63,227 nucleotides of DNA, taken from positions 1 to 63,227 of the forward strand of contig CALLKY010000038.1 of the NCBI GenBank assembly GCA_938083135.1. The letters are read 5' to 3'. How positions within the stretch are numbered: position 1 is the stretch's first letter; every line of letters begins with the position of its first letter. The notes under the pieces are model-generated. The model saw nothing but the letters and a program-made list of their open reading frames with translations, searched no databases and was not told the DNA's origin. Below, piece after piece: positions 4,602 through 10,460 of this stretch. Both the position numbers and the translations under genes were made by a program. The DNA comes from an uncultured Alphaproteobacteria bacterium. Its GTDB lineage: Bacteria > Pseudomonadota > Alphaproteobacteria > Bin95.

Positions 4602-5825
4602 TTAGCGCCGCCAGCGCCCAGCGGCGCGGAGTTCTGGTACCGTCCAGAATATGACAACGGGGATGGAGATTGCCCCCAATGCCAGGGCGATGACGGCGGC
4701 GTAGCCCTCCGTCACGTCATGGATCAGGCCGCCCAACGTCGCGCCGACGGCGGCGCCAGAACCCATGCCCATGAAAATTGCGCCCATGATCAAGCCAAGG
4801 TCTGGGCCGCGGCCAAAAATGCGGGCGGTGAGGGCGGAGATAACGGGACCACGACTACCAAAGCTGGCTCCATAGAGAATGACAAACGCCCAAAGCAGGA
4901 ATGTGCTTGGCGCGATGGCCAGCGCCGTCAGCAGGACGTAGCCGAAGATTGTCAGGCTGTAGGACAGCGTTACGGAAATGAGCGCGCCGTATCTGTCTGC
5001 GATCACACCAAACACCAGCAAGCCCACTGTGGCGGAGATGCCCGAAACGCCGAAGGCGCTGGCGGCAGTGATCGGATTGACACCATTTTCCACCAAGAAC
5101 GCCACGATCTGTGGCTGGACAGAAAACATGGAAATAGCCGTGATGAAATGCACTGCCGTCAATGCCCAATAGGGGCGGGACCGGACGGCGCGCTTGAAAG
5201 TCCACGCCTCAAGCGGGGCAGAGGATGCGTTCTTCTGCCTGTCCATTAAGTCTGGATGGCCGCGCGCGATCCGTCGCCATGGTGCGAATAGAGTGATCAC
5301 GCCGAGTGATGCCACAATGATGGCGATGCCGATGTAAGCGTTGCGCCAGCCCAGATCATCGATCAGATATTGCGTCACCGGTGAGAACGTCATCACACCG
5401 ATACCGGCGGCACCCGAAACGATGGCGATAGCTGTCGTCAACGAACGCCCGAACCAGCGCGCGAGCAACGTTGATTGCACGGCGATGCCGAGTGCGGCAG
5501 CACCAAAACCCACGATCAGGCTAAGGCCTAGATAAAATTGCCAGAGCGATGTGAGCTGTGACGCTAGAAATGGCCCAAGCGCCAGGCACGCCATTCCAAG
5601 CGGAAACAATACCGCTGGCCCGAACTTATCAAACAGGCGCCCAGCGACTGGTGAGAATACGCCAAGCCCCAGCATGCCAAGCGCGTAGATGCTGTTCGCT
5701 TCCGCCCGGGACCAGCCAAGGTCGGCGCTGACGGGCAGCAGGAATACAGCAAACGTCTCGCTGACGCCGCGCGCACTTGCACTCATGATTACAAAGAGTG
5801 CAAGTGCGACGACGCCAAGCGTCAT
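4602..5825 (-). CDS. MFS transporter, monocarboxylate/oxalate-formate antiporter type
   Basis: About 407 residues with roughly 12 hydrophobic segments and a polar central loop after segment 6 (RGHPDLMDRQKNASSAP). The first helix region (SETFAVFLLPVSADLGWSR) and the loop GRLFDKFGP resemble the MCT/OFA-like branch of the major facilitator superfamily, whose members carry small carboxylates. It is the third gene of a minus-strand set after the two decarboxylase subunits, 41 bases downstream of the beta subunit, so uptake of that enzyme's 2-oxo acid substrate is a reasonable inference. The ATG at 5825 is the only clear start; the open frame continues upstream without another ATG. Confidence 0.85.
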   Translation of the reverse strand: MTLGVVALALFVIMSASARGVSETFAVFLLPVSADLGWSRAEANSIYALGMLGLGVFSPVAGRLFDKFGPAVLFPLGMACLALGPFLASQLTSLWQFYLGLSLIVGFGAAALGIAVQSTLLARWFGRSLTTAIAIVSGAAGIGVMTFSPVTQYLIDDLGWRNAYIGIAIIVASLGVITLFAPWRRIARGHPDLMDRQKNASSAPLEAWTFKRAVRSRPYWALTAVHFITAISMFSVQPQIVAFLVENGVNPITAASAFGVSGISATVGLLVFGVIADRYGALISVTLSYSLTIFGYVLLTALAIAPSTFLLWAFVILYGASFGSRGPVISALTARIFGRGPDLGLIMGAIFMGMGSGAAVGATLGGLIHDVTEGYAAVIALALGAISIPVVIFWTVPELRAAGRWRR

Positions 5826-5866
5826 GCCCCTTCGGGCAATGGAAGGTCCGGCGGCTGGTGTACTGG

Positions 5867-6475
5867 TCAGCGGGGCTGGACGCCGAGTAAGCGCTCCCGG
5901 AAGCGGTGCTTCAGGTAGACGCCATCTTGCGGCGGTAACGCCATGCCGGCAGCTTCTGCACTGATTTTTACAACAGCGCAGGCGGGGCCTTGCACCGTTT
6001 TGATCCAGTCGTGCAGCTCTGCAGCCTCATCCGGTGTTTTGATATCGCGAACGGCCCGGTAGCCAAGGCCAATCGCCGTCTGCGCAAGATTGACGCCACG
6101 CGCAGTATGCGTTGTCTGCTGGCCCGTTTCGCCATAGCGCTCATTATCGAGGACCACGACAATCAGGTTCTCAAGGCCTTCAGCGCCTGCTGCTGCAAGG
6201 CCCGTTAGACCCATCAGCACTTCGCCGTCGCCAGTCAGCGCCATAACGCGCTTTTCTGGCTGTGCAGCGGCAAGGCCCATAGCCATAGGCACAGCGCCGC
6301 CCATGGCACCATAAAGGTAGAAGTTTAGTGGATGGTCGCCCGCTGCTTTTAGGTCGTAACAAGGCGAGCCAAGCCCTGCGACAATGCAAAGGTCATCGCC
6401 GCGATTGGCTACAAGATGGTCGACAAAGGTGCGGCGGTCGATAAGGCCGTCTGGCTTGGTTTCGATCGTGCTCAT
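5867..6475 (-). CDS. Thiamine-diphosphate decarboxylase, beta (cofactor-binding) subunit, ComE-like
   Basis: A 202-residue stand-alone C-terminal half of a ThDP decarboxylase. It has the diphosphate/Mg motif beginning GDGEVLMG and ending around LDNERYGETGQQ, preceded by FYLYGAMGGAVPMAMGLA. This layout matches sulfopyruvate decarboxylase beta (ComE) and the C-terminal half of phosphonopyruvate decarboxylase. The start ATG overlaps the alpha-subunit stop by four bases (ATGA), so the two subunits are coupled and probably form a heteromer. The chemistry is expected to be decarboxylation of a 3-carbon 2-oxo acid with an anionic group. Which acid cannot be read from sequence: no phosphonate or sulfonate genes lie nearby. 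Confidence 0.85.
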   Translation of the reverse strand: MSTIETKPDGLIDRRTFVDHLVANRGDDLCIVAGLGSPCYDLKAAGDHPLNFYLYGAMGGAVPMAMGLAAAQPEKRVMALTGDGEVLMGLTGLAAAGAEGLENLIVVVLDNERYGETGQQTTHTARGVNLAQTAIGLGYRAVRDIKTPDEAAELHDWIKTVQGPACAVVKISAEAAGMALPPQDGVYLKHRFRERLLGVQPR

Positions 6476-7026
6476 TTCTTGTTGTCTCCAAGGCCGCCGT
6501 CAGAGAATTTCTTAGTGCCGACAAGCTTCTGCGCAAGCAGAACAGCCGTCTGGCAATTGCCGTTATAGGCCTGATCAATTGCAACGCGGACGGTTTCTGC
6601 CACGTCTTCTGGCGTCTCGCAGCGATAGCATTTGACACCAGAGAGCTCTAAATGCGCTTGGGTGGTTTCGCCCATTTGCATCTGCCAGGAATTAAACTCG
6701 CCCCATTCGCCGCGCATGGTGATGAACATTGGCAGTGGGAATTGGCATGTCTTTGCCAAGCTCAACATATTGATGGTGTTGCCTACACCACTGGACTGCA
6801 TCAGCAGCGCGCCCTTTTGCCCGCCAAGCCACGCGCCAGCTAGACAAGCCACGGCATCTTCTTCTGTTGCAACAGACATGGCGCGCATGCCGTTGGCAGC
6901 GTGGGTGCGTTCGATCAGGCGTTTATGGCCAGCATCTGGCACATAGGCGACTTGGGCGATGCCGGCGTCTTGGAATGCGTCAAAGATCGCATCCCGCCAG
7001 GCGTCAGCTTGGGCTTGGTCAGTCAA
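6472..7026 (-). CDS. Thiamine-diphosphate decarboxylase, alpha (PYR) subunit, ComD-like
   Basis: A 184-residue stand-alone N-terminal (PYR) half, partner of the downstream beta subunit. The activating glutamate that contacts the thiazolium aminopyrimidine lies in ATEEDAVACLAGAWLGG; LLMQSSGVGNTINML and FITMRGEWGEFNSWQ are typical of ComD and phosphonopyruvate decarboxylases. The start is a TTG at 7026-7024, with AAGGA about 10 bases upstream; no in-frame ATG exists until residue 47, which would remove conserved sequence. First gene of a minus-strand operon alpha-beta-MFS, divergent from a second transporter gene. Confidence 0.85.
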   Translation of the reverse strand: MTDQAQADAWRDAIFDAFQDAGIAQVAYVPDAGHKRLIERTHAANGMRAMSVATEEDAVACLAGAWLGGQKGALLMQSSGVGNTINMLSLAKTCQFPLPMFITMRGEWGEFNSWQMQMGETTQAHLELSGVKCYRCETPEDVAETVRVAIDQAYNGNCQTAVLLAQKLVGTKKFSDGGLGDNKK

Positions 7027-7110
7027 CGGGGTGATTTCCTTCGGATAGGCAGGCGTGGTACGCCCATGGGTGATTCTAAGCTCCGCAGTCTAAGGCATAT
7101 TCCCGCCACA

Positions 7111-8325
7111 ATGGCAGCCCCTTCAAACATGGCAGAACTGCCCGAGGCGCTGGTCTCGGCGGCGAAGGCGGTAAAGTATCCGTCCGCCCGCATTATTTTC
7201 TATTACGTAGCGATGTTTGGGACTGTCGCGATCATCGGTCCGTTCCTGCCGCTTTGGATGGAGGGTAGAGGGCTTTCGCCGGTGGAAATCGGCTACATCC
7301 TGGCCGCGATGTCCTGGGTGCGGGTGACGGTGAACCCACTGGCTGCCCATGTTGCTGACGTGACAGGCCGCCGCAAACGCCTAGCGATGCTCTGCGCGGG
7401 CGGTGCCTGCATTGCCATGGCGGTGCTTACGCAGACCTACGGTTTCTGGGGTATTCTGGCCGTTCTAGCGATTGGGAATGCGCTGCAGGGCCCTGTGCTA
7501 CCAGTTGGAGAAAACCTGTGCTTGCTGACGATCCGCGCGAGAGGGCTGGAATATGGCTTCCTGCGATCCTGGGGGTCAGTCTCATTCATCGTGGTGGTGA
7601 CGGCGGCAGGGTTCTGGCTGGAAAGCGGGTCCTCAAACCATGTTGCCTATATGCTTCTCGGTGGGATGGGGCTGATATTCATCGCCGTATGCTTCCTGCC
7701 AGACTTAAGGTCACCGCCACGAGAGAATGCCGGTCGCAAATTTGCGTCAGCACCTGCATGGGCGCTGCTTCGGGACAGGCGCTTCCAGCTGCTCCTGCTT
7801 GCCGCCGCCGCTAACATGAGCGCCCATGCTGCGCTCAACGGCTACTCCACAATCTATTGGAAGGCGGCGGGCATCTCCGAAAGCCAGATCAGCATGCTCT
7901 GGTCTGTTGGTGTGGTGGCGGAAATTCTGTTGTTTTGGGGCAGCGTCCATGTTGTGCGCAGGTTCGGGCCTGGCGGTCTAATGGCGCTCGGTGCGGCGGG
8001 TGGTGTGATACGTTGGGTCGGCCTTGGTATGACAACGGATTTTTATGCGCTTCTGGCATTTCAATCCTTGCATGGCCTGACATTCGGTGCGGCCCATCTT
8101 GGCGCGATGACCTACTTGCAGCGCCATGTGCCGACGGAATCTTCCGCCACGGGGCAAGCGCTCTACTCAGCCCTTGGGATGGGCCTCGCCATTTCAATCA
8201 TGCAGCCCATCACCGGCACATTGTTTGAGAACTTCGGCGGATCGACTGCATTCTTCACAATGGCTGGGCTGGCATCGCTCGGCCTGATATTCGCGTTTGG
8301 TCTAATGAGAAAGCTGCGCGAATAA
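7111..8325 (+). CDS. MFS transporter of the HcaT / MFS_1-like type
   Basis: A 404-residue membrane protein with about 12 segments. The N-terminal YYVAMFGTVAIIGPFLPLWM and MSWVRVTVNPLAAHVAD resemble the family of the phenylpropionate permease HcaT and nucleoside-proton symporters. The start ATG at 7111 gives the normal length; upstream frame sequence overlaps the divergent decarboxylase gene and is not credible. Only 84 bases separate it from the divergent decarboxylase operon, so shared regulation is possible. The substrate is unknown. Confidence 0.85.
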   Translation: MAAPSNMAELPEALVSAAKAVKYPSARIIFYYVAMFGTVAIIGPFLPLWMEGRGLSPVEIGYILAAMSWVRVTVNPLAAHVADVTGRRKRLAMLCAGGACIAMAVLTQTYGFWGILAVLAIGNALQGPVLPVGENLCLLTIRARGLEYGFLRSWGSVSFIVVVTAAGFWLESGSSNHVAYMLLGGMGLIFIAVCFLPDLRSPPRENAGRKFASAPAWALLRDRRFQLLLLAAAANMSAHAALNGYSTIYWKAAGISESQISMLWSVGVVAEILLFWGSVHVVRRFGPGGLMALGAAGGVIRWVGLGMTTDFYALLAFQSLHGLTFGAAHLGAMTYLQRHVPTESSATGQALYSALGMGLAISIMQPITGTLFENFGGSTAFFTMAGLASLGLIFAFGLMRKLRE

Positions 8326-8408: not shown

Positions 8409-10460
8409 ATGATGATCCGATATGCGTTCTGGCGGCTAAGCGGGCGTACTGTGAAGGCGGCATGCATCGTTCTTTCAGCCTGCATCTCGGCGCCAAGCGT
8501 CGCGCAGCAAGCGATTGTCGGCGGTGAGACATTAGTAGAAGCCCGCTCCCTAGTTACCGAGGGTGAGAGCGCGGCAGCGCGGGACCTGCTCATGCCTTGG
8601 GCGCAAGCTGGGTCAGCCAATGCGCAGTTTGAGCTTGGGCGTCTTTATGCACGTGATGCGCAGCTGAAGGATGACCTGCTTGCTCGCAAATGGTTACGCC
8701 GGGCTGGGCTGCAAGACCACATTGAAGCGCTGATGCTACTTGCTGAGAGCTATTACGATGAGGACCATGACTATACCTTAAGGCAGGCGTTCCGCGCCTA
8801 TAAGCATGCTGCTGAACTTGGCCACCCGCCAGCAATGTACCAAGCCGGGTCTTTGATGCGGCTTGGTGACGGTACCACCAAAGATATTGAAGGCGGGCTA
8901 GAGCTACTCCGCGCTGGATCTGAGGCGGGTGATGTGGATGCGATGTTTGATTTAGCAGTGTTTGCTAGCAATGGTGATTACGGGCCAGCAGATCAGCAAA
9001 AGGCCGTTGATCTATATCGGAAAGCGGCAGACGCTGGACTTCCAAAGGCAATCAATAGTTTGGCGCAAATGTATTGGCGCGGCGCCGGTGTCGAGCAAAG
9101 TTATTCCGAAGCCTATCGATTGTTGCTGCTGGCTACGGAGAAAGGCAGCGTTACGGCCAAGTACAATCTGGCACAGATGTATCGGAGGGGCCGCGGCCGC
9201 CCTGTTGATATCGCCGAGGCACGGAAGTGGATGCGCCGTGCTGCTGATGCGGGCGATGTCGATGCACAAGGCATTGTGGGTGATCTGGCAAGGAATGGCG
9301 AAGGTGGGCCAGTCGACCAACACCTTGCTTTCAGAATGTATGAGGCCGCCGCCAAGCAAAAGAACCCCGACGCACTAGTTAGGGCTGCGCGCCTACTTTT
9401 GCTTGGCGTCGGTGCTGAAAAAGCAAACGACAAAGCATTTGCCTACGCGCTTGAAGGATACTTTAGGCGGGGCAGCGGCGCAGACGCCGCTTTAGCAGCA
9501 GCGAGCCTGCGGATGACCGCCGCGGATTTCGACAGCGCGCGCAAGATGATCGCGCACCGGTTTGCGACTAGTCTATTGCTTGACGTCGGCCAGATGTTTT
9601 TGGACGGGAAGATTGTCGAGGAGAACGCGGCGGAGGCGATGAAATGGATTGCGCTTGGGGCCGAACAAGGCCATCCGCCTGCTCAATTGGCGCTTGCGAA
9701 GGCCTATACTGCAGGTGAGGGCGTTCCCTTAGATATCGAAATCGCGGCGACGTGGTGGGAAGCCGCTATGAAGGCCGGAAACCGTGCCGCTGCGCTTTGG
9801 CTGGCTGCTTACCATGACAATTTTGGTATTGGTCCGAATGACCTTTCTAAAGCAGCTAAAGCCTACTTTTACGCAATGGCCCTTGGTGATGATAAGGCGA
9901 TTAACCGCCTGACTGAGATTGCCGAACTTGGCGTTGCTGAAGCTGAGTACTGGCTAGGTCGTGCGTTCCTAAGAAAGGATCGTACGATAGAGAATGCCCA
10001 AACGGCACTAACTTGGCTGGAGCGGGCGGCGGAACAAGAACACGCAGAGGCGCTCACAGAGGTAGCGATCATCTTCCGCGCTGGGTTGAGCGGCGAAGTT
10101 AATGATAAGAAGGCTGCCAGATATTTTGCGCGGGCGGTTAAAGCTGGCTCGGACATCGCTAAGCTGTTTCTGGGCCGTTTATACGAAGATGGCCTAGGCG
10201 TTCCTCGGGACGGTGCCCAAGCAATGGTGCTGTATCAGGATGCCGCTGAGAAAGGCATTGCATCGGCTCAATATCGCCTCGGGCTTGGCTATAATGTTGG
10301 ACTTGGCGGTCAGCGTGATGACGCAAAGGCGCATTTCTGGTTATCGCAGGCAATGAGGGCCGATAGTGAGATCGATGCTCTTGTTTTGCTGACGCAGCTG
10401 GAGGCAGGAATGTTGCTGGCTGATTGGGACCGAGCCGAAGCGCTGCATGCGGGTAAGTAA
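8409..10460 (+). CDS. Secreted Sel1-like repeat protein
   Basis: 683 residues. A signal peptide is visible (VKAACIVLSACISAPSVAQQ, cleavage near residue 33), so the product is probably periplasmic. The rest is an almost unbroken solenoid of Sel1-like repeats of about 36 residues, each with a pattern like A...LA.MY..G.G...D...A..W...AA..G (for example around residues 255-290 and 580-615), interrupted near residues 330-390. Sel1 solenoids are protein-interaction scaffolds in signalling, secretion or envelope stress; no enzymatic domain is present. It stands alone between an MFS gene and argC. No specific function can be given. Confidence 0.85.
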   Translation: MMIRYAFWRLSGRTVKAACIVLSACISAPSVAQQAIVGGETLVEARSLVTEGESAAARDLLMPWAQAGSANAQFELGRLYARDAQLKDDLLARKWLRRAGLQDHIEALMLLAESYYDEDHDYTLRQAFRAYKHAAELGHPPAMYQAGSLMRLGDGTTKDIEGGLELLRAGSEAGDVDAMFDLAVFASNGDYGPADQQKAVDLYRKAADAGLPKAINSLAQMYWRGAGVEQSYSEAYRLLLLATEKGSVTAKYNLAQMYRRGRGRPVDIAEARKWMRRAADAGDVDAQGIVGDLARNGEGGPVDQHLAFRMYEAAAKQKNPDALVRAARLLLLGVGAEKANDKAFAYALEGYFRRGSGADAALAAASLRMTAADFDSARKMIAHRFATSLLLDVGQMFLDGKIVEENAAEAMKWIALGAEQGHPPAQLALAKAYTAGEGVPLDIEIAATWWEAAMKAGNRAAALWLAAYHDNFGIGPNDLSKAAKAYFYAMALGDDKAINRLTEIAELGVAEAEYWLGRAFLRKDRTIENAQTALTWLERAAEQEHAEALTEVAIIFRAGLSGEVNDKKAARYFARAVKAGSDIAKLFLGRLYEDGLGVPRDGAQAMVLYQDAAEKGIASAQYRLGLGYNVGLGGQRDDAKAHFWLSQAMRADSEIDALVLLTQLEAGMLLADWDRAEALHAGK

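Follow-up and report, generated by a model that had tools for sequence, protein, structure and literature searches.

We describe a gene cluster in a 63,227-nucleotide stretch of DNA from an uncultured alphaproteobacterium (here called the window), in which two overlapping genes encode the alpha and beta subunits of a putative heteromeric thiamine diphosphate (ThDP)-dependent decarboxylase and a divergently oriented gene encodes an HcaT-like carrier of the major facilitator superfamily (MFS). Sequence comparison with relatives suggests, with moderate confidence on our part, that these genes make up a conserved unit in which the carrier would import a carboxylate for decarboxylation to an aldehyde and CO2. 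This stretch is contig C38 (CALLKY010000038.1) of a 4.15-Mb genome that is 99.99% complete and whose source is placed by its relatives among uncultured Alphaproteobacteria.

The alpha subunit, the pyrimidine-binding (PYR) half of a two-subunit ThDP enzyme (184 amino acids; positions 6472 to 7026, minus strand), matches TPP_enzyme_N (Pfam; E = 8e-7), and the beta subunit, the diphosphate-binding (PP) half (202 amino acids; 5867 to 6475, minus strand), matches TPP_enzyme_C (Pfam; E = 4e-20). Their genes overlap by 4 bp. Downstream on the same strand, 41 bp from the end of beta, starts a gene for an MCT/OFA-like MFS transporter (407 amino acids; 4602 to 5825, minus strand; Pfam MFS_1, E = 1e-44), and facing the pair is the gene for the HcaT-like transporter (398 amino acids; 7129 to 8325, plus strand), a whole-length match to MFS_1_like (Pfam; E = 4e-60). 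As mechanically listed, the HcaT-like open reading frame starts at 6901 and reads through alpha; we prefer a start at 7129 because the genus orthologues align from residue 1 of that version, which leaves a divergent spacer of ~100 bp (7027 to 7128). This spacer is weakly conserved within the genus, and an inverted repeat sought in it was not found. The alpha start codon is TTG, and three genus relatives have CAT (ATG) at that site. Open reading frames and Pfam and NCBIfam matches bear out the four-gene arrangement given in an earlier note on this DNA.

The HcaT-like gene lies divergent from alpha, 34 to 140 bp away (between tblastn ends), in all 16 loci of the subclade that contains the window pair, from 15 genomes. 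A further 78 loci had 1.5 kb or more of upstream sequence (77 loci of the wider family and one of the sulfopyruvate decarboxylase ComDE), and none of them has the gene within 3 kb. In a tree of HcaT-like proteins, the 16 linked to the pair cluster together (Shimodaira-Hasegawa approximate likelihood ratio test [SH-aLRT] support, 97) as against 11 unlinked ones, and the linkage appears to have had a single origin on this tree. Among the 14 genomes of the window's order, 13 carry the subclade alpha (11 of the 11 good-quality ones) and the HcaT-like gene adjoins it in all 13, as it does in genome G024 of another family; G014 and G057 carry both genes, apart from each other. (L041 is in the linkage count and absent from the enzyme trees; short loci duplicating longer ones, L001 to L014 and L016 to L018, were excluded from the subclade listing and the first tree.) Because the carrier gene is adjacent in every close relative examined, we suggest that carrier and enzyme work together.

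The divergent pair is kept in five distinct gene neighborhoods: rpsI-rplM...argC in the window genus, lptA-lptB-rpoN-hpf-ptsN in a second genus, amidase-glcE-glcD in a third, TauE...MBL-ADH at L022, and DUF4864...MBL-pgk at L034, several of these gene names having been assigned by eye. This diversity bears on the possibility that the linkage is inherited synteny with no functional meaning. The neighborhood is indeed ordinary vertical synteny inside each genus, and a single origin implies few independent events. However, the flanks differ among the five backgrounds, yet the divergent genes are never more than 140 bp apart, and L022 and L034 have only an MBL-fold gene in common. We consider it improbable that synteny alone explains the arrangement.

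The enzyme half of the proposed unit has the features by which two-subunit ThDP decarboxylases are recognized, namely, separate PYR and PP subunits, the GDG..DN cofactor motif, and the alpha Glu, a residue with a catalytic role. The motif GDG...DN is whole in the window beta, and alignments of 27 sequences per subunit show no variation at alpha E55 or at beta G82, D83, and N111; across the full locus set there are exceptions, GDGE being present in 89 of 108 betas. From these motifs, the ThDP machinery is predicted to be intact. AlphaFold modeled the subunits with a predicted local distance difference test score (pLDDT) of 89 for alpha and 93 for beta. Among PDB fold matches, the alpha model found AzcB first (9u8r; E = 4e-13) and RhiE next (9iz4; 1.4e-8), and the beta model found RhiF first (9iz4; 3e-12), with AzcC 28th (8e-9) after many single-chain ThDP enzymes. 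The two models thus correspond to the halves of RhiEF and AzcBC, two-subunit decarboxylases of solved structure, which favors a heteromeric decarboxylase.

We propose that the alpha and beta subunits form a complex with ThDP at the interface, as in RhiEF. ThDP decarboxylation proceeds by attack on C2 and loss of CO2; here, the acid attacked would be a 2-oxo (or imino) acid, and the departure of CO2 would be followed by release of an aldehyde (or imine). The HcaT-like carrier most likely imports a carboxylate, either the substrate or its precursor, so that the imported compound, or a 2-oxo acid made from it, would lose CO2 to give an aldehyde, which enzymes encoded elsewhere would process. In the window genus, a second, MCT/OFA-like carrier of monocarboxylate type would have joined the operon. 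HcaT works by symport, and its substrate in Escherichia coli, 3-phenylpropionate, is taken here from the names of NCBIfam models. The closest of these to the window carrier is the 3-phenylpropionate transporter PRK11128 (219.7 bits, under the cut-off of 259); the score against TIGR00902 is also under the cut-off (170.5 versus 698.9), and that against the broad MFS subfamily NF037955 is over it (198.7 versus 100). Although the carrier resembles the HcaT family over its whole length, no phenylpropionate genes were identified alongside it. The neighbors of unlinked HcaT-like genes were dropped as a clue, no common partner being evident by eye in the four loci listed.

Several observations weigh against the proposed unit of importer and decarboxylase. 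An HcaT-like match occurred without an alpha match in 11 of 60 genomes searched, so this carrier family is not specific to the pair. Support for the subclade is uneven, with SH-aLRT values of 99 in the first tree, 82/49 in the concatenated tree, and 64 (both subunits), 99 (alpha), and 92 (beta) in later quick trees, and the subclade was listed after its HcaT neighbors were known, although the enzyme tree recovers it without using them. No aldehyde-using enzyme is linked across the subclade, candidates being present in parts of it only: a short-chain dehydrogenase/reductase (SDR) within 3.5 kb at 7 of the 16 loci, all from one genus, and a zinc-type dehydrogenase ~1 kb after beta at L022. A neighbor survey, which looked for 14 labels within 3.5 kb, found no aldehyde dehydrogenase (ALDH), coenzyme A (CoA)-transferase, acyl-CoA dehydrogenase, CoA ester lyase, MaoC, or MmgE/PrpD in the window subclade. 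With no catabolic gene linked to the pair across the subclade, the "undescribed pathway" of the earlier note goes beyond the evidence at the locus, where we see an uncharacterized branch of a familiar enzyme type, accompanied by a conserved carrier, rather than a demonstrated pathway.

Two-subunit ThDP decarboxylases are called rare in a 2025 paper (PMC12746152), which counts three characterized cases including its own, LumKL, and names the biosynthesis of rhizocticin and of coenzyme M as the only other settings in which they were known; RhiEF is described in PMC12141560. In one genome scan, 262 stretches held some relative, and the betas of the best 80 loci were 47 to 80% identical to the window beta. 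The family, which we name after its VPDAGH motif, is common across Proteobacteria and occurs sporadically in other phyla. None of the six members scored (the window, L049, L101, L102, L127, and L131) passes a curated two-subunit model. A conserved carrier offers a handle on the substrate of the enzyme, and a compound shared by the two could name the reaction of the whole family, making the unit a promising, if unproven, place to look for a new reaction.

A bold alternative for the substrate follows from the fact that the nearest solved fold to alpha is that of AzcBC, a TPP-dependent alpha-imino acid decarboxylase from Streptomyces (PDB 9u8q, 9u8r, and 9u8s): the enzyme may act on a cyclic or acyclic alpha-imino acid or an N-heteroaromatic 2-carboxylate, as AzcBC and LumKL do, and not on a 2-oxo acid. 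In addition to the fold ranking, the single window alpha prefers AzcB by sequence (1.9e-9 versus 5.7e-6 for RhiE), VPD and RGxxGExNxW are common to AzcB and the family, and relatives on two plasmids occur together with PxpA and FAD oxidoreductases. In PMC12746152, LumK and LumL of Nocardioides simplex are described as a 1:1 two-subunit ThDP decarboxylase (~20 and 23 kDa) that acts on quinoxaline carboxylate, a likeness to the window pair by description only, and they belong to a 25-gene lumichrome operon. On the other hand, the window alpha is just 25 to 26% identical to AzcB, the beta motifs differ, and a profile of 27 alphas puts RhiE (7.8e-17) slightly above AzcB (7.3e-16); the beta subunit is nearer RhiF. 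Trees in which AzcBC was held with the family or with ComDE were equally acceptable (approximately unbiased test, p-AU of 0.43 each; neither rejected). Since the tree does not fix its position, the likeness to AzcBC is a lead and not a sign of membership. Moreover, VPD also occurs in L147, which groups with RhiEF, and is therefore not specific for imino substrates. On balance, we regard a substrate of this kind as unlikely. A long shot that goes further is that the whole VPDAGH family is a further class of enzymes decarboxylating alpha-imino or N-heterocyclic 2-carboxylates, with the HcaT-linked subclade importing one such compound as a core trait of the order; that compound is perhaps host made, which is a guess. 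Among the literature matches listed, judged by title or the start of the abstract and with subscription papers not covered, no paper dealt with the window family or AzcBC.

A different substrate is suggested by relatives on plasmids, for which we chose 11 annotated regions with family members from 50 records (a 12th family region, L121, has no annotation, and L130 is ComDE). These regions contain ALDH (10 of 11, one truncated), CaiB/BaiF or another CoA-transferase (7), MmgE/PrpD (6), acyl-CoA dehydrogenase (5), MaoC (5), and CoA ester lyase (4), which would fit a CoA pathway fed from a branched C5/C6 2-oxo dicarboxylate. However, the window subclade showed none of these genes within 3.5 kb, and at 67 other loci of named genomes each was seldom nearby (ALDH at 7, CoA-transferase and acyl-CoA dehydrogenase at 2 each, and MaoC, CoA ester lyase, and MmgE/PrpD at none); for that reason, the pathway seen on plasmids cannot be transferred to the window, and we dropped a C5-dicarboxylate pathway for it. 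The plasmid members also belong to other subclades, and carriers of the HcaT and MCT types suggest monocarboxylates. We therefore judge a C5/C6 dicarboxylate to be quite improbable. The clearest enrichments near the 67 loci were mild: ALDH (7 near, 1 far) and a 6-phosphogluconate/3-hydroxyisobutyrate-dehydrogenase-like protein (7 near, none far).

Some of the plasmid regions merit mention in their own right. In L131, from a Bradyrhizobium guangxiense plasmid from peanut, the family pair lies with a Glu/Leu/Phe/Val dehydrogenase, ALDH, CoA-transferase, MaoC, and MmgE/PrpD; six similar records exist, and L131 is the one examined. 4-Methyleneglutamate is abundant in peanut, and one idea is that this plasmid may encode a catabolic route for it; at the level of search term or title, nothing relevant was found among the literature matches listed. 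Plasmids of Sinorhizobium, Deinococcus, Mesorhizobium, and Bosea (L125, L127, L128, and L129) combine the pair with ALDH, acyl-CoA dehydrogenase, CaiB/BaiF, and MaoC, with CoA ester lyase in three and PxpA in two, a plasmid-borne pathway of dicarboxylate type. In the public records of L119 (8001 to 8606) and L120 (7983 to 8573), the beta subunit is labeled "aldehyde dehydrogenase," though it is a ThDP-binding subunit, and alpha is labeled "phosphonopyruvate decarboxylase" in those of L119 and L131.

The window pair resembles ComDE in having two small subunits, PYR and PP halves, with the same cofactor motifs and genes that often overlap. Sulfopyruvate decarboxylase is the nearest NCBIfam profile for both halves, and both fall below its curated cut-offs (alpha versus TIGR03845, 117 bits and 147.95; beta versus TIGR03846, 128 bits and 221.5). 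As a yardstick, the annotated ComE of Sulfitobacter scores 241.5 bits, over the cut-off, and its ComD 146.9, just under. Against TIGR03297, the model for phosphonopyruvate decarboxylase (AepY), the two halves score 104.6 and 66.7 bits, short of the cut-off of 312.5. For comparison, we assembled nine bacterial ComDE pairs, comprising six over the beta cut-off and one just under it among 289 genomes of the class, the Sulfitobacter plasmid pair, and one in L030. Two weaker matches from the 289-genome search were excluded, L147, which groups with RhiEF in the tree, and L148, which is 51 to 53% identical to the window pair. The nine pairs are 24 to 33% identical to the window pair. A concatenated tree with fragments of RhiEF and AzcBC separated the window family (37 rows) from ComDE (9 rows), with support of 100/100 each, and the family fell outside RhiEF (100/100); larger quick trees agree on the separation from ComDE. 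Loci with one recovered subunit (4 without beta and 9 without alpha) were omitted from the trees.

The motifs divide the groups in the same way. Of 102 family alphas, 100 carry VPD, as against none of the nine ComD proteins, which have VPC, as does RhiE, whereas AzcB has VPD; QSSGVGN is found in 89 of 102 alphas versus 0 of 9 ComD proteins, and DN..YGETG in 91 of 108 betas versus 0 of 9 ComE proteins, all nine of which have DNGSYGSTG. Thus, the family has VPDAGH, QSSGVGN, and DNERYGETG where ComDE has VPCKQ, QNTAIG, and DNGSYGSTG. Neither ComDE subunit model found anything over its cut-off in the source genome, and the best matches there to Xsc (sulfoacetaldehyde acetyltransferase; 258.9 bits, cut-off 676.4) and phosphoenolpyruvate (PEP) mutase (135 bits, cut-off 319.6) also fell short. 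Among the genes annotated at 2.3 to 21.4 kb, the annotated part of the window, no sulfonate or phosphonate gene was seen. We rejected sulfonate and phosphonate roles on profile scores, tree, motifs, and genome content, and the window pair appears, from its sequence, to be neither ComDE nor RhiEF. That it is nonetheless a divergent sulfopyruvate or phosphonopyruvate decarboxylase is very unlikely, even though ComDE and RhiEF are its closest characterized families by profile, the heteromeric fold is shared with RhiEF (9iz3 and 9iz4), RhiF is the top fold match of beta, and the 27-alpha profile slightly favors RhiE. The earlier note had described a split, ComDE-like enzyme whose context, lacking coenzyme M, cysteate, taurine, and phosphonate genes, did not speak for sulfopyruvate or phosphonopyruvate as substrate; our analysis supports such an enzyme, lying outside both groups. 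It had also set two grounds for giving up its proposal, placement within a ComDE or phosphonopyruvate clade and absence of the transporter linkage in relatives; what we found was neither.

The linkage claimed in that note holds for one transporter of its two. In contrast to the HcaT-like gene, the MCT/OFA-like gene stands beside the pair in 4 of 4 loci of the window genus and in 0 of 12 other subclade loci. It is a genus-specific addition to the locus, so that the two flanking transporters do not constitute one unit. The protein is 73 to 78% identical among relatives; its closest NCBIfam model is the L-lactate transporter SfMCT (138 bits, cut-off 320), followed by models of bile salt and oxalate/formate types. 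Distant MFS genes, 24 to 26% identical to it, occur within 3 kb at eight other loci of the family, including L101 in the source genome, and we rejected these as the same linkage because the similarity is too low. Homologues elsewhere were dropped as a clue, the contexts of three loci being unlike. One such homologue (L161, 6065 to 7282, in G014) belongs to a series of genes on one strand that also encodes HyuA/HyuB-like, quinone-oxidoreductase-like, acyl-CoA dehydrogenase-like, and FAH-like proteins, named by eye from their N termini.

The remaining neighbors of the window locus, encoding LLM, enoyl-CoA hydratase, and ribosomal proteins, reflect ordinary genus synteny; LLM and enoyl-CoA hydratase were dropped as pathway members because they move with rpsI-rplM, within the genus only. 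Directly after the HcaT-like gene lies a gene for a 683-amino-acid Sel1-repeat protein (8409 to 10460), for which a homology search found no homologue in three genus relatives. The source genome (G000) contains two more family sets, a pair on contig C147 and a split set with beta on C66 (25711 to 26271) and alpha on C24 (75827 to 76348). The assemblies are drafts, and the split is partly uncertain; four genomes from the genus (G000, G001, G002, and G004) have the two genes of this set on separate contigs, and in the neighboring genus the two are adjacent.

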